From a virus, in IMG/VR virus record IMGVR_UViG_3300044700_000298, positions 1-26,534 of that record: a stretch of 26,534 nt of DNA. One strand, given 5' to 3'. Position 1 is the stretch's first letter. Every line of letters begins with the position of its first letter. Shown here piece by piece: positions 2,869 to 26,534 of the stretch. The position numbers and the translations under genes are program-made. The notes below the pieces were generated by a model. It was not told where the DNA came from and made no database searches. It saw nothing but the letters and a program-made list of their open reading frames with translations.

Positions 2869-2993
2869 TTGTCCTTGCCATTCTTGCGTGTTTTCTTCTT
2901 GCTGGCTCAGTAGCATTGCAATTTACAATATACTTGTATTTAAAGTCATTGGTTAAAACGCCCTGGTATTACAAGGAAAATAGGTATTTGTGA
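2865..2993 (+). CDS. 42-residue single-pass membrane micro-protein between terL and portal
   Basis: A short open frame beginning at ATG 2865, which overlaps the terminase stop as ATGA, and ending at TGA 2991-2993, which overlaps the portal ATG as TGATG. A GAGG at 2854-2857 lies seven bases upstream. Residues about 1-27 are almost entirely hydrophobic (M-I-V-L-A-I-L-A-C-F-L-L-A-G) and would span a membrane. They are followed by a short aromatic and basic tail (K-S-L-V-K, W-Y-Y-K). Close coupling on both sides and a proper binding site argue for a real gene. I do not recognise its family. A tiny holin-like, spanin-like or membrane-signalling peptide are all possible. Confidence 0.6.
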   Translation: MIVLAILACFLLAGSVALQFTIYLYLKSLVKTPWYYKENRYL

Positions 2994-5221
2994 TGGATAT
3001 TCGTGAAATATTGCAAGCTGCTATACAGCGTACGCAACAACCAAAGATGACTGCATTACAAGCACCACAAGCAAAAGGGCAAGTAGGAAGCTTTGATGTA
3101 GAGAATCTCCTACTGAATAAAGACGATGACTTGTCTATTGACCATAGCAAGTCTGAATGGAGAGTCAGTCCGGAAAACGATAAAGAAGATGCATTAAAAG
3201 TTGTTGCACATGTCAAAAAACAATTCGACATAGCATACACATCACGGCTTGAAATGGAACTTGAGTGGACTCAAGCCCTTGCATTTTTTGAGGGTAGGCA
3301 ATGGTTTAGGATTAATAGCCAGACTCGAAACTTGGTAAATCTGCAAAACCCTAACGAAGCTGCTCGATACGTTACCGTAAACAAAATGCGTCCACTGATT
3401 GACGGCGTAGTTGGAAAACTTACACAATGCGCCCCAGATGCGCGAGCAGTGCCACTCTCTTATAGCGAGTTTGACCAGAAGGCTAGTGAGGAAGCAAACT
3501 TCATAGCTGGTCATTACACTAGGAAGTTTGGCAGAGAAACGCAAACTAAAGAGCGCGTGCGCTGGGCCTGCGTGACTGGTACTTCGTTCGTTAAGGTGTG
3601 GTGGAATGCTAAAGCCGAGCAAGTGGTTCCCGAATATTCAATCATGGATGGTTCTGTCACAGGTTTTAAGTCAATGGCGATAGGAGATGTTGAAGAGCAG
3701 ATTATCCCATGCTTCAACGTCTATTATGATCCAGTAGCTCAAACAGATGATCAAGTCAGGTGGCTTATCCATGCATGTATTCGTCCTTTATCTTGGTTTG
3801 TTGACAGTTATGGTGATGCTGGTAAGAAGGTGGTTCCGGATGCTATTGCTGGAGATAATGCGGGTTATGTGGATTCGTATCTGGAAGGCTTAGGTAACAC
3901 AGGATACGGATGGGTTCAACCATCGTCAGCACGATTGAATAACTCAGATCACAAGCGTAAAGCGGCTGTTGTGTATGAGTACTGGGAAAAGCCAACCGAA
4001 CAATACCCTAATGGGCGATTCATTGTAAGCACCAACAGTGCGTTGCTTTATGCCGGAGAATGGCCATACGAAAAGAAAGACGAGTTTCCATTCATTGCAC
4101 TTCGATGGCAACCTCGATCTGGCACGCCATATGGTCACAGTCTCGGCTTTGACTTATGCCCACTACAATTGACCTACAACCGTTTGTATTCACGTGCTGT
4201 AGAGCAGTTTGAAACCACTAAAGACTATGTTATGGTTGAGCGCAATAGCAACATTGGGGCTGATGCATTCAATAATACTAGCGACGATATTGAAGACAAA
4301 AACCGCACATACAGAAAAGTGTACTTTAACAGAGGTACGCATCCTCCACAGATTATGCGTGCACCTGGTGTCAGCGGAGACCTATTCCCGTTTATGCAGA
4401 CCGTGGAAAAAGACATGATGGATGTCGCTGGACTCCATGATGTTTCGCAAGGTCAGGCTCAAGCGGGTACTCCTGCTGAGTCGGTTAAGTTACTTCAGCG
4501 TGCGGACAACACTCAGCATTCGTATATTCGCGCTGACATTGAGATTAGCATTGCAAAGATCAAAGAGTGGGAGATTGCTCTTGTCAAAGAGTTTGCGCCT
4601 GCTCCATTTGTAGGTAGCGTTGATGACCAGATTAATAGTAAGTCTCCAGCACAACAAGGGATTGTAGACTTCCAAGCTATACGTGAAGGCGGTCTGTATA
4701 AGGTCGTTTATGTACCTGGGTCATCGCAAGAAGATAGCCCTGACCAGAAGTTACAGAAGATTGCAGCGCTACGTCAAATGGGATTGTTTGGTGACCCGGC
4801 TGACCCAGAAACCAATGCGTTGGTAGTCAAGATGTTGCAGTTGCCAGAAACTGGTGAAATCCTTGAGCATCTTGCGCGACAAGCTGAAAAACAACAGATG
4901 CAACAACAGCAGATGATGGAGATGCAACAACAACAAATGATGGCTCAGCAACAGCAACCTCAAGGTCAACAGTATGACCCAGAAGCTGAAGGTCATCGAG
5001 CAGAACTAGACATGCAAAAGCAAACCACGCTGGCTGAACAAAAAGCACAGATGGAGCAAGCAAAGATGCAAATGCAAAGCCAACAGAAGCAAGAAGAGTA
5101 CGCTGCGCAAAAAATTGCAGACATAAATCATGCTATGGCGATGCAAGCAGTTTCTCCGGAACCAACACAAAGTTCTACTTCCGGAGGAAAGCAGAAGCCA
5201 CGACCTGCAAACAAAAAATAA
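2993..5221 (+). CDS. Portal protein (P22-like)
   Basis: A 742-residue portal, the dodecameric ring through which DNA enters and leaves the head. The characteristic N-terminal portal signature is seen around residues 92-105 (A-L-A-F-F-E-G-R-Q-W) and the N-K-M-R-P-L-I-D segment near 130. The length matches the long P22-type portals. The C-terminal 110 residues are unusual: about 30 residues dominated by Gln and Met (632-661), then a charged coiled coil, then a basic Pro/Lys tail ending N-K-K. In P22-type portals a long C-terminal helical barrel runs into the head, so this may be its counterpart. ATG 2993 is chosen because it overlaps the preceding stop. GTG 2990 in the same frame is an alternative and would add one residue (residue numbers here count from it). 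AGG at 2982-2984 is the nearest binding site. Confidence 0.9.
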   Translation: MDIREILQAAIQRTQQPKMTALQAPQAKGQVGSFDVENLLLNKDDDLSIDHSKSEWRVSPENDKEDALKVVAHVKKQFDIAYTSRLEMELEWTQALAFFEGRQWFRINSQTRNLVNLQNPNEAARYVTVNKMRPLIDGVVGKLTQCAPDARAVPLSYSEFDQKASEEANFIAGHYTRKFGRETQTKERVRWACVTGTSFVKVWWNAKAEQVVPEYSIMDGSVTGFKSMAIGDVEEQIIPCFNVYYDPVAQTDDQVRWLIHACIRPLSWFVDSYGDAGKKVVPDAIAGDNAGYVDSYLEGLGNTGYGWVQPSSARLNNSDHKRKAAVVYEYWEKPTEQYPNGRFIVSTNSALLYAGEWPYEKKDEFPFIALRWQPRSGTPYGHSLGFDLCPLQLTYNRLYSRAVEQFETTKDYVMVERNSNIGADAFNNTSDDIEDKNRTYRKVYFNRGTHPPQIMRAPGVSGDLFPFMQTVEKDMMDVAGLHDVSQGQAQAGTPAESVKLLQRADNTQHSYIRADIEISIAKIKEWEIALVKEFAPAPFVGSVDDQINSKSPAQQGIVDFQAIREGGLYKVVYVPGSSQEDSPDQKLQKIAALRQMGLFGDPADPETNALVVKMLQLPETGEILEHLARQAEKQQMQQQQMMEMQQQQMMAQQQQPQGQQYDPEAEGHRAELDMQKQTTLAEQKAQMEQAKMQMQSQQKQEEYAAQKIADINHAMAMQAVSPEPTQSSTSGGKQKPRPANKK
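5154..5186. repeat. Inverted repeat at the 3' end of the portal gene
   Basis: Two perfect 8-base arms (CTCCGGAA at 5154-5161 and TTCCGGAG at 5179-5186) flank a 17-base loop inside the coding sequence for the portal tail. No run of T follows, so it does not look like an intrinsic terminator. It could form an RNA hairpin about 65 bases ahead of the scaffold start, but chance is also possible. Confidence 0.3.
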
Positions 5222-6084: not shown

Positions 6085-7131
6085 ATGGCAATTGACTTTA
6101 ACGGAGCGCTGACACTTGCAGACTATGCAGCCATCTCCAACGACAATCTTGTAAAAGAGATTACAAAAAGTTTGCATAAGACGTGGAATGCGCTTAAGGA
6201 TATTCCACTTCACACTAGCCCATCCCTCCGCCAGGTCGGAATGCGCTATCTCAACGCTAACATCCCTGCCCCTAACTGGACTGGTATTAACTCGGAGCCA
6301 GTCGCGTTCCGCAGTAAGCCTAAGTCTTACGAAGAGCAGTTGTACCTTGTGCGTAACAAGTTGACCGTTGATCGACGTTTGCTTAATCAGCCAAACTCCA
6401 TCATCGACCCAATTGAAGCACAGGTGCAAATGTTCCTGGAAGGTTTCGCCTACGATTTTAATGATAAATTCATTAATAATGATCCGTCGGTGTCATCCGG
6501 CGGATCTACTTCGGAGTGTTTTCCAGGCATCAACTATCGTCTAAGGAATGCTGCTGACTACGACATTCCATCGGAAATGGTAATTGCTTCGCAGGATATT
6601 TCTGCTAACGCAACAACAGGTTTGTTTGCAGGTAGTGGTGTAGGTACTGCTAACGCAAACAAGTTCTTTGCTGATATCCAGAACCTGTTTGACAACATGA
6701 ATAGTCCTGATGGCGATGGAGTCGTTCTGTATATGTCAGAACTTGCTAAGCGTCAGATGGAAATGGCTGTTCGTGTAATGGGTATTGGTGCTGGTTTTGA
6801 TATCACCCAAGACTCCTATGACCGACCTGTAGAAAAGTACAAATCGGCGACGATTCGTACCGTTGGTCGTAAGTCGGACGGTGTAACTCCAGTCATTAGC
6901 AATACTCAAACTATTGGTTCTTTGTCCAGTGCTAAAGCAACATCTATCTTTGCCGTACGTTACGGTACTGGATACGTTACAGGATGGCAGTCCGAGCCAT
7001 TCAAGCCTAAGTATTTGGGTCTTAGTAATGAGAACGGCATTATGCATAACGTGTTGTTCGACTGGGGTGTAGGTTTGTGGATTCCACATACCCGTGCACT
7101 GGGTCGTCTTGACTGCGTTGTGACAGCGTAA
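6085..7131 (+). CDS. Major capsid protein
   Basis: A 348-residue protein following portal and scaffold. The N-terminus (L-T-L-A-D-Y-A near residue 10, then an amphipathic helix) and the mixed alpha/beta body with long Asn- and Gly-containing loops resemble the BPP-1 / Bcep22-like coat group, which is expected to have the HK97 fold. No protease or delta-domain precursor is evident. A good binding site (AAGGA at 6072-6076) lies eight bases ahead of ATG 6085, fitting a highly expressed gene, and it ends with tandem stops (TAA TAG at 7129-7134). It would form the icosahedral shell. The family assignment is from remembered resemblance; the order of genes makes the role itself rather secure. Confidence 0.85.
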   Translation: MAIDFNGALTLADYAAISNDNLVKEITKSLHKTWNALKDIPLHTSPSLRQVGMRYLNANIPAPNWTGINSEPVAFRSKPKSYEEQLYLVRNKLTVDRRLLNQPNSIIDPIEAQVQMFLEGFAYDFNDKFINNDPSVSSGGSTSECFPGINYRLRNAADYDIPSEMVIASQDISANATTGLFAGSGVGTANANKFFADIQNLFDNMNSPDGDGVVLYMSELAKRQMEMAVRVMGIGAGFDITQDSYDRPVEKYKSATIRTVGRKSDGVTPVISNTQTIGSLSSAKATSIFAVRYGTGYVTGWQSEPFKPKYLGLSNENGIMHNVLFDWGVGLWIPHTRALGRLDCVVTA

Positions 7132-8240: not shown

Positions 8241-8888
8241 ATGACTAGAGGCGAGATCAAACGACGTATAAGGTTGCTAGGAAAGCATTACTTTTCTGGC
8301 GACAACGACCTTGACCCGTTTGGTCTTGACCTTTTGATTGTGGAAGTTACAAATCAAATAGCACGGACTACTGATAGTTATATTGGTAGGCGTTACCTAG
8401 ATATAGTCGCTGGAACAAGTGAATATTGTGACAGCGACCTATATCGTGTGAAGAATATATTTACATTGCAGTCAGATGGTGATTACGAGCGGCTTCAGTT
8501 AATTGACTGGGCAGATGCTCGATCACAAGACTATCGACGAACCGACACAGACATTACTCCAACACAAGCTATTGTGTTTGGCATGAACAGAATTAAACTT
8601 TATCCACAGCCATCAGCAAGCACAACCAATGGGCTGATGATTGAAGGATATGCAATCCCTGGTGATTACTGGGTGTATGACTCTAATGGTAACCCAGTAA
8701 CACTTATAGATAGTCATAGTTGTCCTCTTCCTGAATCTGGACACGATGCAGTTGTATACGGTGTTCTGGCTGAAAAAGCGTTGCAGATGCGCGATGGTGA
8801 AGCCGCACAAATCTACACACAGAAGTATCAAGAACGAGTAGGCATACTTGAGTCTAATGCCGCTGTGTACAGCAGGAGAACACTGTAA
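8241..8888 (+). CDS. Head-tail adaptor/connector protein, first of two
   Basis: A 215-residue protein resembling the adaptor proteins that bind under the portal of short-tailed phages (P22 gp4 or gp6-type adaptor group). It has an N-terminal helix (M-T-R-G-E-I-K-R-R-I), a central beta part ending in R-I-K-L-Y-P-Q-P, and a C-terminal helical hairpin around residues 168-205 (H-D-A-V-V-Y-G-V-L-A-E-K-A). The last feature is typical of these adaptors. AGGTGA at 8231-8236 precedes ATG 8241. Its stop overlaps the next start as TAATG. It would extend the portal ring and form the platform for the tail. There is no lysozyme-like motif, so the muramidase activity known from P22 gp4 is not supported. Confidence 0.65.
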   Translation: MTRGEIKRRIRLLGKHYFSGDNDLDPFGLDLLIVEVTNQIARTTDSYIGRRYLDIVAGTSEYCDSDLYRVKNIFTLQSDGDYERLQLIDWADARSQDYRRTDTDITPTQAIVFGMNRIKLYPQPSASTTNGLMIEGYAIPGDYWVYDSNGNPVTLIDSHSCPLPESGHDAVVYGVLAEKALQMRDGEAAQIYTQKYQERVGILESNAAVYSRRTL

Positions 8889-12734: not shown

Positions 12735-12745
12735 GGAGAAGATAA

Positions 12746-13456: not shown

Positions 13457-13462
13457 GGGTAA

Positions 13463-14605
13463 ATGGCTGCATCAGTCGGTGGAAGAGGTGGCCCAAGATT
13501 TAGTGTCTTGGGCGTACCTTTTGGCTCGGGTACAGGCGGCACAACTAAAACTGCCGTTAGTAACCCGTCGTCAAAATCCCCGATTACAATCGTCATTAAT
13601 GTTACGAGAGTTGTCAAGTGTAACTTAAGTAGCAAGACATCAGTAACAAATACACGCCAGCCTGTAACAAAAACGCCTGTATCGAATGCAAGCAGTAAAG
13701 TTACAGTTACAGTTATTAGAGCAGCTACTACAAAGACTGCTGTATCAAACACAAGCGGCAAGGTATCAGTTAGTGCCGTACGGCAAGCAGTTACATTTAG
13801 TCCTGTAGCATCCACAAGCAGTAAGGCAACTGTTACCGCCACACGTCAGGCTGTTACAAAAACAGTTGTTTCCAATGCAACTAGTAAAACAACTGTCACA
13901 AGTACGAGGCAACTTGTAACAAAGACTGCTGTATCTGCGATTAGTAGTAAGGCAGTAGTTACAGCGTCAAGAGCAGGGTTCTCTAACACCAATGCTTTAC
14001 TAAGTAGTAAAACATCTGTCTCTGCCGTTTTCACCGTCACTCGACAAGTAGTTGCAAATACGAGCAGTAAAACTACGGTAACAGCAACAAGGCAAGCAGT
14101 CACCGTTACTCGTGTAGTAAATATAAGCAGTAAGGTAACTGTTACAACCACACGGCAGACTGCAATAAAAACGCCTGTATGTAATCTTAGTAGCAAGACT
14201 ACTATCTCGGCTACACGAGCGGGTTTTGTAAATGCAACGTGTAACCTTAGCAGTAAAGCAGTATTTACAACCAGTACTAGAGTTACAAAAGTAATTACTA
14301 CAAAGCTAAGTAGTAAAGTTGCCATAACTGCGTACGGTGTCAAGGGCGGTGGCGCAACAACGTTTGTTGTTGTCAATATGTCTGTGCGTGCAGTTGTAGC
14401 TGTCAATCAGTTATATTGTGAATGCCCTCCGTGGATGCCAGATGGCACGCTTACAAATACATTTAATGACGAAGGAACGTTAGTCAATGGATTTGCAAAC
14501 GATGCATCATTGACGTATCAATTCAAGAACGATTCAACGTTATCATCGACTAATAAGCGTGATCAAACCCTTACCTCTGGTTGGGGTAAAAAAGGTTGTG
14601 AATGA
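13463..14605 (+). CDS. 21-residue tandem-repeat surface protein
   Basis: A 380-residue protein built almost wholly of repeats. After a Gly-rich start (1-27), thirteen units follow. Their conserved S-S-K lysines fall at residues 38, 58, 79, 100, 121, 142, 163, 183, 203, 224, 245, 265 and 285, always 20 or 21 apart. The consensus unit is about T-K-T-x-V-S-N-x-S-S-K-x-T-V-T-x-T-R-Q. Then comes a Cys/Trp hinge (Y-C-E-C-P-P-W) and five exact 10-residue units, ending G-K-K-G-C-E. The regular beta pattern suggests a solenoid or a string of small beta hairpins forming a rod, with many Lys and Arg at fixed places. AAGGG at 13455-13459 is close to ATG 13463. A fibre or receptor-contact role is likely from form and place but unproven. 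Confidence 0.65.
   Translation: MAASVGGRGGPRFSVLGVPFGSGTGGTTKTAVSNPSSKSPITIVINVTRVVKCNLSSKTSVTNTRQPVTKTPVSNASSKVTVTVIRAATTKTAVSNTSGKVSVSAVRQAVTFSPVASTSSKATVTATRQAVTKTVVSNATSKTTVTSTRQLVTKTAVSAISSKAVVTASRAGFSNTNALLSSKTSVSAVFTVTRQVVANTSSKTTVTATRQAVTVTRVVNISSKVTVTTTRQTAIKTPVCNLSSKTTISATRAGFVNATCNLSSKAVFTTSTRVTKVITTKLSSKVAITAYGVKGGGATTFVVVNMSVRAVVAVNQLYCECPPWMPDGTLTNTFNDEGTLVNGFANDASLTYQFKNDSTLSSTNKRDQTLTSGWGKKGCE
13544..14344 (+). repeat. Thirteen coding repeats of 60-63 bases
   Basis: The DNA encodes units of 20 or 21 residues with conserved S-S-K and T-R-Q positions. The protein pattern is much better kept than the bases, so the array is old or under selection for protein form and is not a fresh slippage array. 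Confidence 0.8.
14438..14587 (+). repeat. Five exact 30-base-period coding repeats
   Basis: Five units of exactly ten residues. Leu of the T-L or S-L pair lies at 330, 340, 350, 360 and 370, and an aromatic lies at 334, 344, 354 and 374 (Asn at 364). The consensus is N-D-x-T-L-T-x-x-F-x. Confidence 0.75.
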
Positions 14606-17600
14606 TGCCAGATAATACAAGACAAGTAAGTTCAGGGACGCAATCATACGTCCTTGGAGACAGACGGTTTGTTGGTATTCAAACAGACCTTCAACCTAAT
14701 GCCTTAGATGTTGGGCTTATTCAAGACGTCAGTAACCTGTATGTTGATGGGTCTTCATTGGCTCCTCGTCCAGGTTGGCAAGCAGAGTTGACATCGTCAT
14801 TACCTGACCCTATTTATGCACTAATTTCATACCGTACAAAAGACAATCAAGACAATAAAGCAATCTTTGTCAGTGGTAAGTCTATCTATGCGCATACCGT
14901 GTCAGACCCAGTTACCAATACAAACACGCACTTAGGTTACGGTCCATGGGCAGACGCAAGTCAAGTCAAGTTAGTACAGCATGGAAAATACGTTTACGGC
15001 GTACCAGGTGCAGGTACTGATGCTTCGCCACCGGTAAGTGGCGGATGCATGTTCCGAACCGATGGAATAAACCCAGTTGAGTACATTCCACAAATTGAAC
15101 CGGTTACTACTGACGGAGAAAACTACGTCAAGTGCACCATCAACCTAGGTGGTGTACTAGTTAAAACCATAGCAGCAAAAACAGATATTGATGAGGCCTA
15201 TCTTACTGCGGCTGAGGCTGCATTTGGAAAGACTGCACTGACTGGCTGGCCATCAACATGGTCTGACAATCTTCTTAAAAATGCATCTGCTAGTCCTGCT
15301 CTATCACCAATTATTCCAAGTGGTGACTTTGATGGTTACACAGGTGGTAGTGGTAATACGCAATTTGACTTGGATTGGCAGTCAAGTAATGCATCTGTAA
15401 ATGCAAATATTACATGGGCACAAAAAAACGGAACTAATGTAAAGCAAGCACCGGGCAGTGTAACTTATTCAAGTGCACCTGGCGGGACGAAGAAGTATCT
15501 TGTGCTGGACAACACTGGTGAATACATAGAACAATCTATACAAAATTTACCGTACGAGCAATGGGGGCCAGCAACTTCAACTACACCAATAGGTTTATAC
15601 AACCTTCAATGGTATTCCTTCGCTAACATTGTAAAGACTGAAGGCAGTGTTAGATACATGGTTACCGTAACTGGGATAGATAGTACGGGAGGAATTATCA
15701 CTGGTGCTCAGTACAGCAAGGAATTCAATCAGGCTTATTCACTCAATGAAAGCGATTGGCTTTTAAACAATGTAGTCGTTGACTTCCGTGAATTTGCTAG
15801 TGTGCTTGTCAAAATTAAATTGAGGTTTGAAAGCACTGCAACGCTTGCAAATCAAGACATTATTATTGACAACATTAGATTTCAGGCTAGTGTGTCGGCA
15901 TTAACAACATCTGTCGAAAACCCAACAACTGCAACTGGACTTGTATCAATAAAGTTCAAACAAGAAAACACAAACTTAGCATTGCGTAATGCGAGCTACG
16001 TAAAGAACCGTGCAATACGCATAATAGCCGCAACAACAACTCCATACATGGATTTTTCTACAGTTGATACGTTGTCTTTTAAATGGGATTTTGAAACAGG
16101 TTCAGTAACAGACACTGGCTCATACCCAAACATTGTTTTAGGGTTACAGGCAAATGGGTCATCTACTGTGGCGTGGTCATCAATAGGTGCGTGGGACAAA
16201 ATAAATCAATACATCTCTTTTAATCTGTTTAGGTTAGGTAACAGTGAAAAGAAAAAAATACAGTACGTCTACGTCAAATTTCTTGAAGATGTGTTTAAGT
16301 CAGACGGAACGTCGTTTAGTAATCTTGAACCGGCGTTTGGTATTGGAGACTTGGTCAAGACAGGCACTAGCCTTACACCAAACATGGCTTATGAATACGC
16401 ATTTACAAGATGGTATCCAGAAAGCCTTACTGCTAAAGTTGGGCCAGACCAATTGCTGTCAGATGGTTTAACTGCCAATGGATATGAGACTAACATATCT
16501 GACGTATCCAACACAGTATTTACAACCGCCGCACTAACATCAGCAAGCGTCATTGTTAATCCACTTGTGCCAACTGGTTCTGTTGGCTACAGCATTGACA
16601 TGTCAAAGGAGCGACGTAAAGTTGTAGCCATTACGGATTCAACTAATGTTGATCAACACCTATTGACTGCGGTTCCAGCTGAATATCAAATTAGGCTGAT
16701 TTCATCTAATGCGGCTCCTGCTATTACATATATCGCACTAGATGGCACAACTGTGACAGTCAGTACAATTGCCGCTGGGGCTTGGGTTGCTCTATCTGGA
16801 ACAAGTTATTACTATTACTCTATTCCAGTAACTCAATCCGGAAAGATACGATACGTAACTTCTGTAACCGGTCCAATATGGATTGAGCACTACGTTTCAT
16901 ATGGCAAAGTTAACTACTATGCGTCAGTTACAGCAAGTGTAAATGCCATCAGTGTAGTGACCCCATTTGCTGTAGGTGACACGATTGTATTTACTACTAC
17001 GCTTGGCACACTGACTGGTGGAACAACGTATTACGTACTAACAAATTCAGGAACAGCAATCACCGTATCGTTGACTTCTGGAGGAACAGTAGTAACTCCT
17101 AACACAAGTACGGCAGCAGGAACGTTTGCTACCATACAAAGGACAGCGCCGGCGCAATACAGTCATGTATTGGTTTACAGAAGATGTAACACCATGTTCC
17201 CAGACGGTAGGTTCAGGCTTATTGCATCGATACCGTATGACCCGTCTACATCGACCACACAGACCGTTACAGGTCTTAACTGGACTGCAACCTATAACAA
17301 CGCATCTGCTACTGCTCCAGGCGTAATTACGCTGACAGATACTGTTCCTGATTCAGACTTACTCTATATTCCCGAGCCATATAAGCAAGGGCAAATACAG
17401 GAGATTGGTCGCGACAGCCTACCTATAGGTGCCAGTTCAATTGCCGTATTTCAAAACCGTACATTTGTCAGTAAAGGCAATGTGCTATACGGAAGTTGGG
17501 AGTTGGAGCAAGGACAGGAGTATAGTTTTTATACGACTCTTGTTCCAGACTTAAATGAGCCTGGCGTGCAAAAGAAAGGTGCTACATTTACTGTAGGTGG

Positions 17601-18588
17601 TTTCTACGACAAAGAAACAATTAAAGCACTTGTCGGTTCTTTTGCTACAGGAATTCAGCAAAGCAACTCAGCATCTGCAACGCTGTACATATTTAAAGAC
17701 AATAGCCTCAGCACCTTGATTGGTTTTGACCCAACAACATTTACTGCACAGGTGTGGATTTCAACTCCTGGTGCAGGCATAGCTGCTCCAAACTCTGTCA
17801 TTAACGCTGATGGTCAAATCATATGGTTGGGCGTCAATGGTGTAAACCAATATAATCAAGGGCAAATCGTACCTAGGTCAACTGAGTTACGCAAACTATT
17901 GTCTCTAGACCCTAGTATGAGAGGTCCCGCAAACATATCGAAGGCGTATTATCAACAATCGTTTACGGTTTACGCAAACAGACGTTTGATGCTAGTCAGT
18001 ACATCCAGCAGTGCTGGAGCTGCAAATCAGACAGTTTATGTATTTGACTACAGAACAAACGGATGGGTTAAGTGGACGACTGTAAGCGATGTGACGTACA
18101 CATCTGGTTGTGTGTTGTCATTCAGTGACAGTATTCAGTATGTCCTAATGGGTAGTACCACAGGGCAGTTGTATAGACTTACAGGCACAACAGACAATTT
18201 AAGTGTTGGAAGTACGGCTCCTATATCTTGGTCGGTACTTACGAGGCAACATGGCCAAACGTATTCTGAAGGCGTCGCTTACCATGCACTTAACCGGGCA
18301 TATCAACTAGACTTGCACATACAAAACCTAGATGCAGTCACTAGCCCCAGTACTACAGCCATGGCTATTACTTGGAGGGTTGAAACAAATCTTGGAGTGT
18401 ACTTAAATAACAGCACAACAACGTATAACTTTGCAACTGGAACAAACAGATCTATTGCAATACGTAATTTAAACAGAGCAATCAAGTCAGCGGCGTTGCA
18501 GATACGGCTATCAGGAAGCACGTCAGGTACGTTCTATATACACGCGGCACACATACACTGCTATGATGGTGCTATACAGAGGTCATAA
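14602..18588 (+). CDS. Large tail nozzle/hub-like protein with inserted beta domains
   Basis: A 1328-residue protein. The N-terminus has Y-V-D-G-S-S-L-A-P-R-P-G-W-Q (47-60), and the region from about 930 to 1200 has strand repeats with F-D-Y-R-T-N-G-W-V-K-W (1148-1158). Both are the kind of signatures found in P22 gp10 or T7 gp12-type nozzle proteins, which have a beta-propeller. Those relatives are about 470-800 residues. The extra length is made of inserts: a jelly-roll, carbohydrate-binding-like domain at about 224-430 ending I-I-I-D-N-I-R-F, a further beta domain to about 600, and one copy of the recurring module (774-845). The end overlaps the next start as TAATG. ATG 14602 overlaps the previous stop; ATG 14605 is a near alternative. 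It probably forms the lower tail tube. Any sugar binding is inferred. Confidence 0.6.
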   Translation: MMPDNTRQVSSGTQSYVLGDRRFVGIQTDLQPNALDVGLIQDVSNLYVDGSSLAPRPGWQAELTSSLPDPIYALISYRTKDNQDNKAIFVSGKSIYAHTVSDPVTNTNTHLGYGPWADASQVKLVQHGKYVYGVPGAGTDASPPVSGGCMFRTDGINPVEYIPQIEPVTTDGENYVKCTINLGGVLVKTIAAKTDIDEAYLTAAEAAFGKTALTGWPSTWSDNLLKNASASPALSPIIPSGDFDGYTGGSGNTQFDLDWQSSNASVNANITWAQKNGTNVKQAPGSVTYSSAPGGTKKYLVLDNTGEYIEQSIQNLPYEQWGPATSTTPIGLYNLQWYSFANIVKTEGSVRYMVTVTGIDSTGGIITGAQYSKEFNQAYSLNESDWLLNNVVVDFREFASVLVKIKLRFESTATLANQDIIIDNIRFQASVSALTTSVENPTTATGLVSIKFKQENTNLALRNASYVKNRAIRIIAATTTPYMDFSTVDTLSFKWDFETGSVTDTGSYPNIVLGLQANGSSTVAWSSIGAWDKINQYISFNLFRLGNSEKKKIQYVYVKFLEDVFKSDGTSFSNLEPAFGIGDLVKTGTSLTPNMAYEYAFTRWYPESLTAKVGPDQLLSDGLTANGYETNISDVSNTVFTTAALTSASVIVNPLVPTGSVGYSIDMSKERRKVVAITDSTNVDQHLLTAVPAEYQIRLISSNAAPAITYIALDGTTVTVSTIAAGAWVALSGTSYYYYSIPVTQSGKIRYVTSVTGPIWIEHYVSYGKVNYYASVTASVNAISVVTPFAVGDTIVFTTTLGTLTGGTTYYVLTNSGTAITVSLTSGGTVVTPNTSTAAGTFATIQRTAPAQYSHVLVYRRCNTMFPDGRFRLIASIPYDPSTSTTQTVTGLNWTATYNNASATAPGVITLTDTVPDSDLLYIPEPYKQGQIQEIGRDSLPIGASSIAVFQNRTFVSKGNVLYGSWELEQGQEYSFYTTLVPDLNEPGVQKKGATFTVGGFYDKETIKALVGSFATGIQQSNSASATLYIFKDNSLSTLIGFDPTTFTAQVWISTPGAGIAAPNSVINADGQIIWLGVNGVNQYNQGQIVPRSTELRKLLSLDPSMRGPANISKAYYQQSFTVYANRRLMLVSTSSSAGAANQTVYVFDYRTNGWVKWTTVSDVTYTSGCVLSFSDSIQYVLMGSTTGQLYRLTGTTDNLSVGSTAPISWSVLTRQHGQTYSEGVAYHALNRAYQLDLHIQNLDAVTSPSTTAMAITWRVETNLGVYLNNSTTTYNFATGTNRSIAIRNLNRAIKSAALQIRLSGSTSGTFYIHAAHIHCYDGAIQRS
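16921..17136 (+). other. FCCH-like beta module, copy 5
   Basis: Residues about 774-845 of the nozzle-like protein. Core pattern: F-A-V-G-D-T-I-V-F-T-T-T, then G-T-T-Y-Y-V-L, then I-T-V-S-L-T-S-G-G-T. It fits the other four copies. Confidence 0.55.
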
Positions 18589-19007
18589 TGCCAAGTTATC
18601 CAGCACCAGCAGCCGGTCAAGCAGCGGCGGCAGACAATGGTCAATCTATTGGTCAAAGTAAAACCGTAGATGATCCTCCTATTACTGCGTCTACAACATG
18701 GGATCCTTATGGGACTAACTTTGTAACACCAATTGAAATCACGGTGTCACAAACTTTAGACTTTGCGCCAATGATTGTTTTAGCAGATGCAACTGGTGCA
18801 GCCGTAACGGTGACTTTACCTGACCCTGGGACGTTTGAAGGTAAAACTGTTACAATCCAGAAGATGGACGTCACTGGCAATGCGGTCAACATTGCTACTG
18901 TTTCAGGCACAATTTACGGTGGCACAGCCGCCATTACAACGCAATATGGCGCCAGAGACTACACCGCAGTCAATGGGGCAACTTACATTGGCTGGGTAGG
19001 GAGATAG
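18588..19007 (+). CDS. Small tail fibre or spike-like beta protein
   Basis: A 139-residue protein. The first 50 residues are flexible (Ala, Gln, Asp, Pro-rich). Residues about 60-139 form a beta unit typical of small phage fibre tips: V-T-V-T-L-P-D-P-G-T-F-E-G-K-T-V-T-I, then a Gly-rich I-Y-G-G-T-A-A-I-T strand, ending Y-I-G-W-V-G-R. This pattern is common in phage tail fibres and capsid fibres. AGAGG at 18578-18582 stands five bases before ATG 18588, which overlaps the nozzle stop. It is likely a trimeric tip or a minor decoration; which one cannot be told. Confidence 0.55.
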   Translation: MPSYPAPAAGQAAAADNGQSIGQSKTVDDPPITASTTWDPYGTNFVTPIEITVSQTLDFAPMIVLADATGAAVTVTLPDPGTFEGKTVTIQKMDVTGNAVNIATVSGTIYGGTAAITTQYGARDYTAVNGATYIGWVGR

Positions 19008-19009
19008 TC

Positions 19010-19834
19010 ATGAGTGAAAAGACACATCCGTTTCAAGTTGGACCACTGCAATCGTACGGTGGAGGACAAACTGCCCCTGTCCAAGTTGATGGTTGGGGTT
19101 CACCATCTTATGATTACAGTGGTGGACGACAGCAACAACAACCTGGAGGTCCATCAGGGTTTTTAAGTCAGCAGTGGCAAAATGCTGGTCCATCTGGACG
19201 AGCCGCTGGAATCATTGGCGCGGGCATGGGACTTATGTCCATGTTCGGGCGAAGGCAAGGTCCATCTAGATACGAAGTTGAACAAGAGGGACTAGCCAGA
19301 AGTGGAATGGGAGCAGCTGACTCCTACGCTGGCATGCTTGGTTCAATGGGACAAGGCTTACAAACACAAGGATTGCATAATCAAAACATGTATCGAGATC
19401 GATATATGGACGAGGCTATGAATCCTGCCAACATGCAGATGGATATGGCATCACTGGCAGCACAAGATTCAGCAAGACAACGCGGTATCTCATCTAGGTT
19501 TGGTCTCATGGGAGGCAACTTAGGTGCAGCAAACGCTATGCGGTCAGCATACAACCCCGGGATGGCAAGCGGAGTTGCTGGGCTGATGGGTGGAAACCGG
19601 CAACGACGCATGAGTGCTTTTGGTCAAGGAGCTCAATGGGGTTCTAGCGACTTTGGCCAAGGCATGGGCATGCTAGGCAACTCATACAATGTAGCAAATG
19701 CTGGTCGTCAGAATATGGGTTCTGTACTAGGACGACTACAAGCATCTAGTGATGCACGGCGTGCGGCTTCTGACCAAGCAATGATGGGTGCAGTCAAGGG
19801 TATTGGCTCACTTGCTGGTGGAGGATTCGGTTAA
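19010..19834 (+). CDS. Internal virion/ejection protein candidate 1
   Basis: A 274-residue protein very rich in Gly, Met, Gln, Ala and Ser. The first 60 residues are disordered-looking (G-G-R-Q-Q-Q-Q-P-G-G), then comes a hydrophobic amphipathic stretch at 65-80 (A-A-G-I-I-G-A-G-M-G-L-M-S-M-F-G). The rest is helical, with many Met and a Gly-rich end. This resembles the small ejection proteins of podoviruses (T7 gp14 or P22 gp7 group), which leave the virion first and help build a channel through the envelope. It starts the size-graded set of three genes that follows the tail genes. GGGAG at 18999-19003 lies six bases upstream. The assignment comes from composition and place only. Confidence 0.5.
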   Translation: MSEKTHPFQVGPLQSYGGGQTAPVQVDGWGSPSYDYSGGRQQQQPGGPSGFLSQQWQNAGPSGRAAGIIGAGMGLMSMFGRRQGPSRYEVEQEGLARSGMGAADSYAGMLGSMGQGLQTQGLHNQNMYRDRYMDEAMNPANMQMDMASLAAQDSARQRGISSRFGLMGGNLGAANAMRSAYNPGMASGVAGLMGGNRQRRMSAFGQGAQWGSSDFGQGMGMLGNSYNVANAGRQNMGSVLGRLQASSDARRAASDQAMMGAVKGIGSLAGGGFG

Positions 19835-21996
19835 TGGAAGGCTTAGGACTATTAGCCGGATTGCTTGGAGGCTATCAGCAAGGGCGTCAGCTCAAGCAAA
19901 ATAGAGCATTGAAGCAAGCGCAACTTACTCGAGAAACAGCACGCGATGCAGCCACATTGGCTCATCAGAAGAAAATGGAAGAGTATGCTGGGCGTCGGTT
20001 AACCATAGCCGAAAATCCACAAGCAAAAACGGACACTGGCCCATCGCTTATTTTTGACCGTCAACTTGACCCAGTACGAGAGTACTGGAAAACATGGAAT
20101 AACAACATCAATAAAGAGACCACTATGGCTGGTCGTAAACGGGTTATTGATGAAGGTTTAGGTAAGCTTCCGTATCACAGGCAGTTAGTCAAAAGTGCTT
20201 TAGGTACATATGGACCACAACTTGGATACACTGACGACACCGACCCAGACCTATTTTTAGGGGGCATGCATGGCATGTCTGGAGTCACATTTGACCCAAA
20301 GACTGGGGCATATGGCGCGCCAAAAGATGTCTACAGTAAATATGCGCCAGCTGTTTCAACAGCAGATAAAGCCGCACTCCGACAAAAAATTGAAGCTATT
20401 TCAAATTCGCCAAACCTGCCTATTTCACAGCAACGAGCTATGATACAAGCAGAAAGGGACAGGTTTGCTGACCTATATGGTGAAGATAATGCAAAGGCTG
20501 AGATTCCGTACTTACCAGGAGATGATGTAACTACAGGTTATAAAACGCTTGATGTGGAAGGAAAGCCGGAATCTCTTGGCAATCGACCAGAGCCTGTATT
20601 TAACGATGCAACAAATCCATTTCTAGGCACAAATATTGAAGGAGGTGTTGCTCGAAGAACAGTACCTCAGCAAAATCTACTGGGGATGTTTGGTACAGAT
20701 GCGCCTGGCATGTTTGCCACACAAGAACAAAAAGATGCCTATCAAAATTCTAGGTATAAACCGTTTACCGAAGACAACCCTGCTTTACAGCCTAGTGCAC
20801 AACGATTTAATCCATTGCAAGGCCAATTTAATATTGCGCCAATGTTTGAACCTAAATTAAATCAAGCACAATTCACAGACCCAGATAAAGAATTTCGGCG
20901 TAACTTTGCTATGCGGGTAATGTCTGGCAGTCCACAGAATCAAGAAGAAGCGGGATTACAACAGTTTATAGAGTCTCAGCGGCAGTACAACCCTAACTTT
21001 GACCCGTTTCGTAACCAAGAAGATTTACGGTTTACGTTGCAAATGGCTAGTCCACAGATTGCGCCAACGCTTCATCGAACCGCAGCAAAGATGGCTACAG
21101 GTGCTGGTTCGTCATTAGAGTTTGTGCCAACAACGCAGAAAACTGTACCTGTCACTGGGAAGTACACCATTGCGCCAAAGGCTTCAGCAATCGCTTCGTT
21201 GGCGTCTGCTGATTATACTAAAGAAAAGACGCAGACAGAAATTCTGATGCGCCAACCTAACTATAGGCTGGCACTCGCTAGAGAAAATCAGATACAAGAA
21301 GGTATATCTAACGATAAGTGGAGGCAAAGATTTGACGCCGCTAAATTCTCGGATGAATCACAGCGTGGATGGCAACAACTCGGTATATCTAGATCTAGAT
21401 TAAACTTTGACATCGACCAAGATAAATTCAAACGTTTTATCGAAAGCAAAAAGTTAGTACGAGACGACATTGCGTTGGTGCAGTCGCTCACTAAACATCA
21501 AGACTTAAACGTCAAAACAATTGACACTGAACTTAAAAGCGTTACTGCTGAAATAGGTAGGGCCCAAGCATCTCAGTGGTTAAATCATACGTCATTAGGC
21601 TCAGTTGATGAATCTATTCTGGCAAAGGTGCAAGGTGGACAAGAACTTAGTCCGAACGAATTTAATGAACTTACAGCCGAACAAAAGATGGCAGTAAACG
21701 AACAAATTAATATGGGTCGACTGGTTAGGCGAGCTGGAACACTACGTGCTCAATTGACGACAGAAAATGGAAAACTTGACACCGCACGTGAATGGGAAGC
21801 TGCAACGCGAAAAGAATTTTCAGGACAAGCTGCTAGAGAAAGAGAAACAGTTGCAGCATGGAAAAAACATAATCCTAGAATGACGGCGGAAGAAATTCAA
21901 CAAGCATTAGATGCCGGTTTAGCTCCACCTAAGCCAACTAAAAAAGGTAAGACAGCCGGTCCAGGGACGGTAGACCCATTCGCCGGTCGAAAATAA
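19834..21996 (+). CDS. Internal virion/ejection protein candidate 2
   Basis: A 720-residue protein beginning with a short hydrophobic Gly/Leu segment (M-E-G-L-G-L-L-A-G-L-L-G-G) and then a charged coiled coil (about 15-65). The middle part (about 65-470) is Asp, Pro, Asn and Gln-rich, with many isolated loops (F-N-P-L-Q-G-Q-F-N near 325). The C-terminal third (about 480-700) is a long helical, highly charged region. It ends in a Pro/Lys/Gly tail. The size is close to T7 gp15 (747 residues), which forms the periplasmic tube of the ejection apparatus, and the gene order agrees. I recognise no enzyme motif. TAATG overlap with the previous gene, with GGAGG at 19820-19824 nine bases upstream. Confidence 0.5.
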   Translation: MEGLGLLAGLLGGYQQGRQLKQNRALKQAQLTRETARDAATLAHQKKMEEYAGRRLTIAENPQAKTDTGPSLIFDRQLDPVREYWKTWNNNINKETTMAGRKRVIDEGLGKLPYHRQLVKSALGTYGPQLGYTDDTDPDLFLGGMHGMSGVTFDPKTGAYGAPKDVYSKYAPAVSTADKAALRQKIEAISNSPNLPISQQRAMIQAERDRFADLYGEDNAKAEIPYLPGDDVTTGYKTLDVEGKPESLGNRPEPVFNDATNPFLGTNIEGGVARRTVPQQNLLGMFGTDAPGMFATQEQKDAYQNSRYKPFTEDNPALQPSAQRFNPLQGQFNIAPMFEPKLNQAQFTDPDKEFRRNFAMRVMSGSPQNQEEAGLQQFIESQRQYNPNFDPFRNQEDLRFTLQMASPQIAPTLHRTAAKMATGAGSSLEFVPTTQKTVPVTGKYTIAPKASAIASLASADYTKEKTQTEILMRQPNYRLALARENQIQEGISNDKWRQRFDAAKFSDESQRGWQQLGISRSRLNFDIDQDKFKRFIESKKLVRDDIALVQSLTKHQDLNVKTIDTELKSVTAEIGRAQASQWLNHTSLGSVDESILAKVQGGQELSPNEFNELTAEQKMAVNEQINMGRLVRRAGTLRAQLTTENGKLDTAREWEAATRKEFSGQAARERETVAAWKKHNPRMTAEEIQQALDAGLAPPKPTKKGKTAGPGTVDPFAGRK

Positions 21997-22003
21997 GGTA
22001 AGT

Positions 22004-25000
22004 ATGGAAAACCAACAACTCAAAGATCTCGTTAAGCAACTTGGTTTGACGCCAGATGCCAAATCATCACGGGCAAAAATACGAGCTATAGCGACCGAAG
22101 AGTTTATTATGAGTAATGCTTATAGGGCATTACTTGAAGGTGCGAAAACTTCACCAAAAGAATTTTCCGCTCTTACTGGTCTAGATGCACAAGACACAGC
22201 CTTGTTACAACAAACGCGTAACAAGGTTAGTGCGCGCATTATTAAAACCAGTCCAAAGAGACTTGGCCCAGAAGGTGTACTCTTCCCTACAGTAGAAGAA
22301 GCGCAGTCAGCTAGGCAGTCTACTAAAGAGGCTGGTGCTAAGGGCATAGCCGCTGAACAAAAAATACAACGACGTGGTCTTCTTGAACAAGTACCCGCAT
22401 ACCTTAGTGGTTTTGCTGGAGGCGGTGCAGCTGATGTTGCCGCAAGTAAACTTAAGGCACGTGGTCTTGACCCAAGACTTGCATACTTTAACGCTGGAAG
22501 CGATACGGATTACGCTAAGCAAATAGGTGCTGAATCTGGATATACGTTTGCAAAAACATTCCCATCTGTAGCCGCATCTGTACCCACAATGGGTCTTGGT
22601 GGAGCAGTTGGTGACATTGCTACTGGTGCATTGACGTCTGGAGTTACGGCTGTATCACCAGGATGGATGCGCGCTATTGCAGGTGGCGTACGTTTTGCTG
22701 GACATCTTGCTGGCGCTATTCAAGGTGGACATATTGGTTCATCATTAGCTGAAAAGGCACAACAGGGACTGACAAGTGGGAACCTTACGCCAGAAGAACG
22801 TGGCGTTGGTCAAAGCATGTTTGGAGAGCAAACTCCGGGTGGTCAGTTAGGAAGCACCGCAGCAACTCTGTCACTATTTAAGCCAACAATTAAACTTGCT
22901 GGCGCTCCACTTCGTAAGTTGTTGCCACAAGTATTTACTGATTACGGGTCAGTTGCACGCAATCCATACATGATGGCGTCGGTGAAAGACTTAGGTACTC
23001 GTGGGTACTTTGTATTGCAAGCAGGGCAAGGTGTAGATGCGGGAAATCAGCAAGCAGTTAAAGACGCTACTGATGCTCTTGGCTACACACCAACTGATGC
23101 TGAACAGTTAAAACCATTTGGTTATAAGACGCAGTTTGAAAAACTGGCAGACATGGGCATGGCTGCCCTTCTTGGTGGGACAACTAGACTGGGTTCATCT
23201 TTAAGTCGCATGGGGCATATTGATACGTCTCCGCGCCCAGAATTTAACGTTAATGATCTTGCTCAACAAGTACAAGACGTTCGTAACAAACGCCAACAGG
23301 GTACTCAACCACCTACTCCACAGGGCGGATTGCAAACTACAGGTGTTGCAGCTGGCGGAAGTTTCCCACGGTTTGAGACTATTGAAGGCGGAGTGCCAAT
23401 CACTGTCGAAGAACGCAGTGGGACAGAAGTTGGAGTATTCCCAACTCGTAAAGAATCATTTGAAGTTGTACAGAAGTTCAATGCTAGTTTTGGTCGTAAT
23501 GCTAATAAAGACGTAGCGTTTACGCCTACATCTGAAGGAGCACAAAAACTAGTCAGTATGAATGCTGACAACGACTTTAACGTGCTTCATCGCAATGCTG
23601 ACGGCACAACCGAAGTCCGCTCATATGGTTGGACTGAACTACCACAGCAACTTAAAGACCAAGCTAGTCAGTTCTTTGGGACAACTACGTTTATTGATAG
23701 GTCAACTCCTGAGCAAACGCCATATAAGTACGACCCAGCAGCGGTTACAGAAGATGTACCTGGGCGCGAGCGTCGTACATACAATACTGAAAACGACTTG
23801 CGTGGCGTACCAGTTAAAGACAAGTCCGGTAACTGGAAGCCCGGTATCTACAAGCTTCGTAAAGACGGAGTTGATGTACCAGTCCGTGCAGTATCAGATG
23901 TCGACACGCGCAATGACAGCGTTGGTGTCAAGACGTTTAGTGGTAACTATTACCGCGTTCCTATTAGTTCGCTTCGTGATGGCGCAGACAAACCGATTAC
24001 GACTGTTAGGCAATCAAGTTGGCCGGAGCAAGCATATCGTAAGTCATATCGCATCGATAACATCCCAGGCGACGCTGTGCGCTTTGCTGAGTCTGATTGG
24101 CGTATTAGTCCAGACGACCAGCAAAAGGTCAAGAATGGCGACGAGGAAGGCTGGAAAGATAGTTATGACGTCGATGCGTTAGAAGCTACGTATACGGGAG
24201 CCACAGAGCGCATAGGGGAACTACAGCAAGTAGAACGCGGCACTGTGTTTGCAGATCGATACAGTGGCGACCGCGTAGTCCTATTGAGCCACGTCGACCA
24301 GACTGTCGAGGGTCGTCGAATGGTTGGCATGCTTGTCTACGATGTAGACAGCCGTGTCTACGAACCGTACGTCATGAGTTATGCCGATGCGGTAGATGTA
24401 TCGGAAGCCGTCAAGATTAAAGAGTCTTTGAAAAAGACTACTGCCGTAGAAGACACAAAAACCGACACCACAGACGAAGAAGGTCCTACTGGGCCTGAAG
24501 ACGAAGAAGGCCCCGGCGATGGATCTGGCGAAGGCGAAGGCGAAGGCGAAGGTCCAGGAGATGGAAAAGTCGAGGGTGAAGGCGAAGGTCCTGGGTCTGG
24601 AACAGATGAAGGCGAAGGCCCAGATTCTGGTACTGATGACATCGAGCCTCCAAAAGTAACGGCTCGTGGCGACAGTGAGGTTAATTACGTCAAGTCGCAA
24701 ATTATTAGGTACTTAAAAGAAAAGACTAACGCTACAAAAGCAACTGTTACACAACAAGAAATTGAGTCTCAAGACTTTGCACCGCAAACTCTTACGCAAA
24801 TCAAAGAGTTTAAGGACACAGGAATTAAGCAAGGTGTCAGGCGTGACATCCTAGATCGAGCGTACAGTGAACTAGAAGAAGACGGAATCATTGTTGCTCC
24901 TAGTGCGGATGCATTTGATAAAGATATTGCCCGTGGTGCTAATTTTGATTCTGCTGTAGAAAAGTTGGAGATGGGAGCTAAGACTCCTAGAGATGCTAAG

Positions 25001-26534
25001 CGTAGCTTTGGAGATAAGTTTGCATCTAAGGATTTAGAACCCGAAGAAAATCTACCGCAACGTACACAGTCAACTGAAGGTGAAGCCACAGGTGAACGTG
25101 AAGCGGGTCATGAGTGGTATCGAAAGACTGAAGGAGAAGAACTTCGCACATCAGCAAGTGTTACTCAAGAAGAAATTAAGTCAATCATACAAGCGTATTC
25201 ACCAGTTCAATCCCGACCACGTGTGTTTGATTTATCCATGAGCTTTGTTGGCAAAGATGGCGGTCGATTGATTGCTACAGCGCAAGCAGAAGGTGTAAGT
25301 AACGAACAAGATGTTGTACGTGTTTTGCAACAACGATGGAACAGTACTGAGCAGGAAGCAAAAGCGTTAGCTAGATATGTTGATGGTTGGGCTACTGGTT
25401 GGGCAATGACTGTTGCCCGCATGGAAGGAGTCAACCTCAATAAACGTTTGATGGCACGAATGACAGATGCCGAAAAAGCAGGTGCTTATTCCTCATTTAT
25501 ACAAAAAGCCGTTGTTAAAGAACTAAAAAATACAGGAATCAAACTTGATTCCGCAATGATTACAAAACTTGCAAACGAAGCAATTAACAACAACGGAAAA
25601 ATCAAAGTAAACGGTACAGAATACACAATACCAATTGTTCAAGACTTTAAAGAATGGGATACGTGGAAAAAAGATTTTAGAGAAATTACTATATTCAATA
25701 ACACTGAATCCAATAAGCAATTATTGGCTGATCTAAAACAAGTTTATTATGAACAACATTTAGGGTCGTTTACTCAACTTACTGCTGGGGCAGCAGAACT
25801 GTATCGACCCGGAGCGCAATATGGACACGTTGATCGTGCTGTAAGAGTGTTGATGGATGGCACCGTTGCGAACGCAGGACAAGTTCTTGCAGTTGAATCA
25901 ACAGCTTTACTTGAAGTAAAACTTCATGAGTTACATCACGCATTACTTCAGTCTCTGCCAAGAGCCATCTATCACGATATTTTAAAATCAAGATTCCCAA
26001 GCCTCGAAATGAAGCACCTTGGATATGGCTCCGAAAAAGGCATGATTACCGAGAGAGATGGTGGAGTTTGGCTTAATACGACACATGAAGAAGAAATGGT
26101 GGCAGCGCTTACTAATGCTGTAATGACTGCTGACATTAATAATTACCAATTTAAATATGGGTTTGGTGTTAATGCCTACGAAGTGCACATTGCTGAAGCC
26201 GTTGTCGAACTTGGTCAATTAATGCGAACTCAAAATGCTGTCATAAACGAGTTGCAAGCAAGTGGACAAAATCCTAGTCGGTCGTTGTGGAAAATGGGCA
26301 ACTTCTATGGCAGAGGAGACAAGCTCGAAGCATCAGAAGTTGCTGGTGATGTTTTAAAATTCGAATATACAAAAGACACAACTGTCCGCGTATATGACAG
26401 TACAACAAACGGTTTTGAACAAGGAAAAATATTAAGATTAGACGGATTAAAGAAAGTTAGTGCCGATAAGTTAAAGCTTGTCGACGTAAAAATAACAGTA
26501 AAGTTTGGCAGCAGAGAGCAAACGTACAAAGTTA
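22004..26534 (+). CDS. Giant multidomain ejection/polyvalent-like protein with HELHH metallopeptidase motif (3' end outside the window)
   Basis: An uninterrupted frame of more than 1510 residues from ATG 22004 (AAGG at 21995-21998) to the window edge. Visible order: a helical N-terminus; Gly/Ala-rich hydrophobic stretches at about 130-148 and 182-246, able to lie in a membrane; a mixed alpha/beta middle (about 420-820); a Gly/Glu/Asp/Pro linker at 823-883; a helical part at about 890-960 with I-L-D-R-A-Y-S-E-L-E-E-D-G-I-I, which looks like a winged helix; and a C-terminal domain with H1308-E-L-H-H1312 and acidic residues E1362-E1364 that could be the third zinc ligand. The HExxH motif points to a zinc peptidase of the gluzincin kind. 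Its place fits T7 gp16-type ejected proteins, and the domain mix fits polyvalent proteins. No lytic transglycosylase motif was found by eye. Confidence 0.7.
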   Translation, partial: MENQQLKDLVKQLGLTPDAKSSRAKIRAIATEEFIMSNAYRALLEGAKTSPKEFSALTGLDAQDTALLQQTRNKVSARIIKTSPKRLGPEGVLFPTVEEAQSARQSTKEAGAKGIAAEQKIQRRGLLEQVPAYLSGFAGGGAADVAASKLKARGLDPRLAYFNAGSDTDYAKQIGAESGYTFAKTFPSVAASVPTMGLGGAVGDIATGALTSGVTAVSPGWMRAIAGGVRFAGHLAGAIQGGHIGSSLAEKAQQGLTSGNLTPEERGVGQSMFGEQTPGGQLGSTAATLSLFKPTIKLAGAPLRKLLPQVFTDYGSVARNPYMMASVKDLGTRGYFVLQAGQGVDAGNQQAVKDATDALGYTPTDAEQLKPFGYKTQFEKLADMGMAALLGGTTRLGSSLSRMGHIDTSPRPEFNVNDLAQQVQDVRNKRQQGTQPPTPQGGLQTTGVAAGGSFPRFETIEGGVPITVEERSGTEVGVFPTRKESFEVVQKFNASFGRNANKDVAFTPTSEGAQKLVSMNADNDFNVLHRNADGTTEVRSYGWTELPQQLKDQASQFFGTTTFIDRSTPEQTPYKYDPAAVTEDVPGRERRTYNTENDLRGVPVKDKSGNWKPGIYKLRKDGVDVPVRAVSDVDTRNDSVGVKTFSGNYYRVPISSLRDGADKPITTVRQSSWPEQAYRKSYRIDNIPGDAVRFAESDWRISPDDQQKVKNGDEEGWKDSYDVDALEATYTGATERIGELQQVERGTVFADRYSGDRVVLLSHVDQTVEGRRMVGMLVYDVDSRVYEPYVMSYADAVDVSEAVKIKESLKKTTAVEDTKTDTTDEEGPTGPEDEEGPGDGSGEGEGEGEGPGDGKVEGEGEGPGSGTDEGEGPDSGTDDIEPPKVTARGDSEVNYVKSQIIRYLKEKTNATKATVTQQEIESQDFAPQTLTQIKEFKDTGIKQGVRRDILDRAYSELEEDGIIVAPSADAFDKDIARGANFDSAVEKLEMGAKTPRDAKRSFGDKFASKDLEPEENLPQRTQSTEGEATGEREAGHEWYRKTEGEELRTSASVTQEEIKSIIQAYSPVQSRPRVFDLSMSFVGKDGGRLIATAQAEGVSNEQDVVRVLQQRWNSTEQEAKALARYVDGWATGWAMTVARMEGVNLNKRLMARMTDAEKAGAYSSFIQKAVVKELKNTGIKLDSAMITKLANEAINNNGKIKVNGTEYTIPIVQDFKEWDTWKKDFREITIFNNTESNKQLLADLKQVYYEQHLGSFTQLTAGAAELYRPGAQYGHVDRAVRVLMDGTVANAGQVLAVESTALLEVKLHELHHALLQSLPRAIYHDILKSRFPSLEMKHLGYGSEKGMITERDGGVWLNTTHEEEMVAALTNAVMTADINNYQFKYGFGVNAYEVHIAEAVVELGQLMRTQNAVINELQASGQNPSRSLWKMGNFYGRGDKLEASEVAGDVLKFEYTKDTTVRVYDSTTNGFEQGKILRLDGLKKVSADKLKLVDVKITVKFGSREQTYKV
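24470..24652 (+). repeat. Acidic Gly/Glu/Pro low-complexity linker in the giant gene
   Basis: Residues 823-883 are nearly all G, E, D, P, S and T. A hexamer unit (GAAGGC) repeats about four times at 24527-24553, giving alternating E-G. It divides the folded middle from the C-terminal domains and may have arisen by slippage. Confidence 0.75.
25925..25939 (+). other. HELHH zinc-binding motif
   Basis: Codons 1308-1312 read H-E-L-H-H, preceded by a hydrophobic and charged strand (L-L-E-V-K-L) and followed by a helix (A-L-L-Q-S-L). This is the usual setting of an HExxH active-site helix. The glutamates at codons 1362-1364 (26087-26095) follow at about 50 residues. Confidence 0.6.

Follow-up and report, generated by a model that had tools for sequence, protein, structure and literature searches.

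A giant late protein of an uncultured phage lineage carries a predicted zincin site related to the metallopeptidases of N4-type virion RNA polymerases

Polyvalent proteins, among which the N4 virion RNA polymerase (vRNAP) is counted, have zincin-like metallopeptidases (MPTases) as their commonest, or hub, domain, found in about 36% of them (PMC5512222), and these MPTases fall into 12 clades (Iyer et al. 2017, PMC5512222). Three roles have been proposed for them, namely processing, either before the protein reaches the head or inside it, freeing of its parts once it has entered the cell, and attack on host proteins, with self-processing placed first (PMC5512222). Polyvalent proteins that combine an MPTase with an ADP-ribosyltransferase (ART) (PMC5512222), such as the 3,421-aa protein of vB_Pun_Y3, join several unlike domains, are encoded late and are presumably injected, and the protein studied here, called the giant below, shares these properties. 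It also resembles N4 gp50 (Schitoviridae), both being encoded by a very long gene that closes the late block, and its gene order recalls that of N4, where gp50 follows gp53-gp51. An earlier note on this DNA had taken a peptidase to be rare in ejected proteins and the locus to be a candidate for an undescribed system; the frequency of zincin MPTases in polyvalent proteins speaks against both statements. The lead toward polyvalent proteins in the same note has held, as N4-type MPTase and ART profile matches and the late-gene context all fit it. Most likely, the giant is a new family of already known injected polyvalent proteins and not a new kind of system.

The window, by which we mean the whole stretch of DNA analysed, is an entire virus record of 26,534 bases. 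Its genes run in the order terminase, portal, capsid, adaptor, variable tail-type genes, proteins of 1328, 139, 274 and 720 aa, and the giant:

1135..2868, + strand: terminase large subunit (PHROGs match, phrog_38)
2990..5221, + strand: portal protein (PHROGs match, phrog_156)
6085..7131, + strand: major capsid protein (PHROGs match, phrog_212)
8241..8888, + strand: head-tail adaptor, SU10 type (PF24175, E 4.6e-15)
14602..18588, + strand: 1328-aa virion structural protein (phrog_3287, E 5e-12)
18588..19007, + strand: 139-aa conserved late protein (ORF call and comparison)
19010..19834, + strand: 274-aa Gly/Met/Ala-rich protein, candidate small ejection protein
19834..21996, + strand: 720-aa protein immediately upstream of the giant, putatively ejection-protein-like (position, size and N terminus)
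22004..26534, + strand: giant gene, first 1510 codons (ORF call; homologues about 4,800 aa, stop outside the window)

The giant is the last gene of the late block, downstream of small ejection-like proteins, which agrees with its earlier description as an ejected-protein candidate; the 720-aa upstream protein has no match in Pfam. Gene order, neighbors and domain content suggest that it may be delivered with the DNA, like N4 gp50. T7 gp16 and the P22 ejection proteins are similar in their position after small ejection-like proteins and in what would be DNA-coupled delivery. By description, the giant differs from them in being several times larger, in that no transglycosylase was found and in the presence of a peptidase.

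The source is an uncultured, probably short-tailed phage. The SU10 adaptor match (PF24175) hints at podovirus morphology. An actinobacterial host was considered and set aside as too weak, the nearest named relatives of the portal (Microbacterium, Arthrobacter and Cellulosimicrobium) having at most 26% identity. A 360-aa gene after the capsid gene (7150-8232) and the 359-, 399-, 236- and 380-aa genes at 10463-14605 stand at about 23-62% between contigs, their neighbors being far less variable, and are likely decoration and host-recognition genes.

As reported earlier, the giant's frame stays open for 1510 codons, from an ATG start at 22004 to the contig end at 26534 (+ strand), with its stop codon beyond the window, and full length is visible in homologues. 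Related loci were found on four contigs, and a terminase scan opened a wider lineage with two divergent giants, G011 and G007, both matched by the peptidase profile (E about 1e-17). The stop that the earlier note had sought beyond the window is reached in G002 (57 kb), where the complete gene encodes 4841 aa and is followed by genes on the opposite strand, and in G011, where it encodes 4046 aa; G007 retains 3254 aa with its 5' end cut. In G003 the gene is present, split by contig ends. These ends (L016 start and L019 end) share an overlap of 231 bases that is 99.6% identical, which probably makes the G003 genome, a record of 62,008 bp classed as linear, a complete one of about 61.8 kb. Judged by these homologues, the window ORF is the first third of a protein of roughly 4,800 residues.

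The giant is fast diverging. Within the near clade its identity is 44-76%, versus 95-96% for the terminase large subunit, and toward the far clade 22-24% versus 82-83%; the capsid genes likewise diverge far more slowly. The divergence is spread along the whole protein, and the presumed host-recognition genes show it too.

The part of the giant that lies in the window can be divided as follows:

22331..22933, + strand: Gly/Ala-rich N-terminal segment, about aa 110-310 (composition)
24458..24658, + strand: acidic Gly/Glu-rich linker, aa 819-885 (composition)
25328..25651, + strand: conserved helical part preceding the zincin core, with a YVDxWAxGW motif, about aa 1109-1216 (alignment)
25652..26278, + strand: zincin-like MPTase domain, about aa 1217-1425 (profile match, N4 vRNAP MPTase)
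25925..25939, + strand: HELHH, aa 1308-1312, with H1308 and H1312 as predicted zinc ligands and E1309 as predicted general base (invariant, 6/6)
25970..25972, + strand: Y1323, +15 from H1308 (a tyrosine at +15 is likewise invariant in the N4 MPTase alignment)
26087..26092, + strand: E1362-E1363, both invariant, with E1363 as predicted third zinc ligand (pairs with the glutamate of N4 NEFMAWGL)

An HExxH motif would be expected 0.011 times by chance in 1510 aa of the giant's composition. It occurs once in each homologue covering the region, as HELHH in the near clade and as HEVNH in G011 and G007. In an alignment of the peptidase region (322 residues; the window and five homologues with 29-68% identity to it), 44 of the 247 columns without gaps are invariant, and H1308, E1309, H1312, E1362 and E1363 are identical in all six sequences, an outcome with a probability of about 2e-4 if columns are treated as independent and kinship is ignored. 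The motif at aa 1308-1312 thus stands as first described. H1311 and E1364 are variable, the latter changing to Q, so the suggestion of a third ligand among E1362-E1364 survives in narrowed form: E1364 drops out and E1363, invariant and paired with the N4 glutamate, is favored. E1362/E1363 follow the HExxH motif by 45-58 residues in the aligned sequences. H1324, 12 residues after H1312, is invariant as well; as an alternative third ligand it is less likely, given that E1363 is the residue that falls on the ligand helix of N4. For the core fold expected of such MPTases, with one N-terminal helix, a three-stranded sheet and two helices at the C-terminal side, two AlphaFold models have low confidence (pLDDT 57 and 50), at which the HExxH is predicted to be helical, and two Foldseek searches of the PDB with these low-confidence models returned no relevant match. 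Taken at the level of sequence, the giant has a conserved zincin-type site, in which H1308, H1312 and E1363 are predicted to hold zinc and E1309 to act as general base.

To place this domain, its alignment (A6) was compared by hhalign with eight MPTases of N4-type vRNAPs from the phage collection. The match has a P of 7.8e-4 over 126 columns, against 0.25-0.35 for unrelated parts of the giant, and pairs HELHH with HELVH and EEEMVAALTN with NEFMAWGLAN. Its strength is moderate, with an hhalign probability of 25%, or 6.5% when match columns are set by the first sequence, and the profile alignments are thin (4-8 rows). Because a shared HExxH alone could produce such a match, the N4 MPTase profile was run blindly along the full length of the giant; a single peak lies at the motif (score 34, at most 25 elsewhere), and the maximum in 200 column shuffles was 23.5. 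When the giant was compared with an alignment of seven full vRNAPs, the four best of 540 window pairs joined MPTase to MPTase. Most members on both sides have T at -3 and a hydrophobic residue at -1, and both groups have Y at +15 and the third-ligand helix E-x-[MVI]-x3-L-[TA]-N, details that make E1363 the predicted third ligand. No direct HMM match of the giant to PF18818 (MPTase-PolyVal), PF18760 or PF18857 was obtained. The miss of PF18818 is not strictly defining, as one model does not cover all 12 MPTase clades and a match is obtained with the profile of the N4 clade. These profile comparisons show the domain to be related to N4-type MPTases.

A second domain, of presumably unlike activity, was recognized by profile in a blind scan of the homologues. 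With an ART profile built from seven phage domains, a single peak appears at about aa 3,900-4,400 of the G002 giant (score 39, at most 17 elsewhere), versus a maximum of 22.7 in column shuffles. This segment lies outside the window, near the C terminus. The C-terminal half of the ART domain (NP..D, G-x-DG, final strand) is matched with a P of 1.9e-5 over 51 columns; the N-terminal half (YHGT, GxYxT) matches weakly (P 0.043), an invariant WHG (WHG..MY) standing where ARTs have YHG, and the ART-like domain would be interrupted by a long insertion. By these profiles the segment is shown to be related to ADP-ribosyltransferases, and its activity is presumptive. In Pseudoalteromonas phage vB_Pun_Y3 (24147-37521, L100), the 3,421-aa protein is polyvalent and DdrB-like and contains HEWWH as well as an ART segment of the YHGT type, and the next gene is annotated as an ADP-ribosyltransferase.

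Other segments of the giant are known mainly by composition. Of the hydrophobic Gly/Ala-rich segments claimed earlier, the Gly/Ala richness is borne out (G+A 37% around aa 141-240) and the hydrophobicity is not of transmembrane grade, as the window part of the giant contains no 19-mer with a Kyte-Doolittle mean of 1.5 or more. The acidic linker was correctly recognized (aa 819-885, D+E 36%); in G011 and G007 a Ser/Thr/Pro/Glu-rich linker replaces it. A possible winged helix at about aa 885-960 could not be confirmed and is not kept in these two giants. The C-terminal 570 aa show good conservation (36% identity between clades), and nothing matched them. A likeness of the C terminus to LPD38 (PF18857) is not claimed, as that model gave no match; no control genome matched it either.

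Besides the motif details, the likenesses to N4-type vRNAPs include a Gly/Ala-rich stretch in the N-terminal part, which other polyvalent proteins also have, and, in most members, a single hydrophobic 19-mer that precedes the C terminus by about 250-290 aa. The giant is longer, with 4,841 aa against 3,331-3,760, its MPTase lies at 27% of its length against about 64%, and its ART-related segment is near the C terminus, whereas a Roseovarius phage vRNAP has its ART well within the first half of the chain (about aa 1,060-1,190). No polymerase domain was detected: the 540 window pairs against seven vRNAPs, a comparison of limited sensitivity, gave no match to a single-subunit RNA polymerase region, and the giant was rejected as an N4-type RNA polymerase. 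With polyvalent proteins it shares a zincin MPTase as well as a segment related to ARTs; unlike them, it has no detectable match to their Pfam domain models, and no helicase, methylase, ParB or lysozyme domain was recognized in it.

We consider it probable that the giant is a virion-delivered polyvalent protein of about 4,800 aa whose zincin processes the giant itself. It would be expressed late, be loaded into the head or core alongside the small ejection proteins, and enter the cell with the DNA as N4 gp50 does. In the zincin (about aa 1217-1425), H1308, H1312 and E1363 would bind zinc with E1309 as base, and the peptidase would cut the giant, in the head or after entry, freeing other parts that may include the C-terminal ART-related segment and its presumed activity. 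We favor self-processing on account of the position of the domain, which is flanked on both sides by other parts of a very long chain. The N4 vRNAP, packaged unprocessed (PMC5512222), counts against it, and as the MPTase-holding region of that protein is required for encapsidation (PMC5512222), a zincin fold retained for assembly or encapsidation rather than catalysis can be argued. Such a role is quite improbable here, since all five predicted catalytic positions are invariant in an alignment where 44 of 247 gap-free columns are.

Should the same injected protein instead use its peptidase as an effector that cuts host proteins of defense or envelope, it would fill one of the three roles listed by Iyer et al. 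(PMC5512222), and its much faster divergence than that of the capsid genes is as expected in host conflict. We think this unlikely: the domain sits mid-protein, like many processing MPTases, and the rapid divergence covers the whole giant and the presumed host-recognition genes. A broader proposal, which we hold to be doubtful, sees a new class of virion-delivered megaprotein without a polymerase, from an uncultured lineage, whose N4-type protease would free separate effectors, one of them an ADP-ribosyltransferase, or cut host defense proteins. That the giant belongs to the tail or the virion surface, for example as a fiber or tape measure, and is not ejected seems very improbable; several neighboring late genes are tail-type and without known function, and against this stand the SU10-type adaptor with a podovirus-like portal, the two profile matches to polyvalent-protein domains and the place of the giant last, after small ejection-like proteins.

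What is new is the family itself, its length, which exceeds that of the N4 vRNAP, its divergence, much faster than that of the capsid genes, and the presence of an MPTase of N4 type where no polymerase was detected. Scans of the giant against Pfam and PHROGs gave matches at chance level only, tblastn searches of 50,697 phage records, queried with the ORF of the window and with three homologue segments, gave none, and no prophage relatives appeared in two scans of genome contigs; the literature searched, mostly outside subscription journals, holds no description of the family. Polyvalent proteins thereby gain a family that diverges fast, has a length of about 4,800 residues and is remote from all isolates. 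The giant shows the N4-type MPTase apart from its usual partner polymerase, which cannot then explain the retention of the domain, so that what such proteases cut becomes easier to test.

Two minor observations concern the gene content and composition of these genomes. G011 has a tRNA-Asn gene (L067:8966-9037), the only one in the stretches scanned. The giant gene has a third-position GC fraction of 0.33, versus 0.40-0.45 in the terminase, portal and capsid genes.
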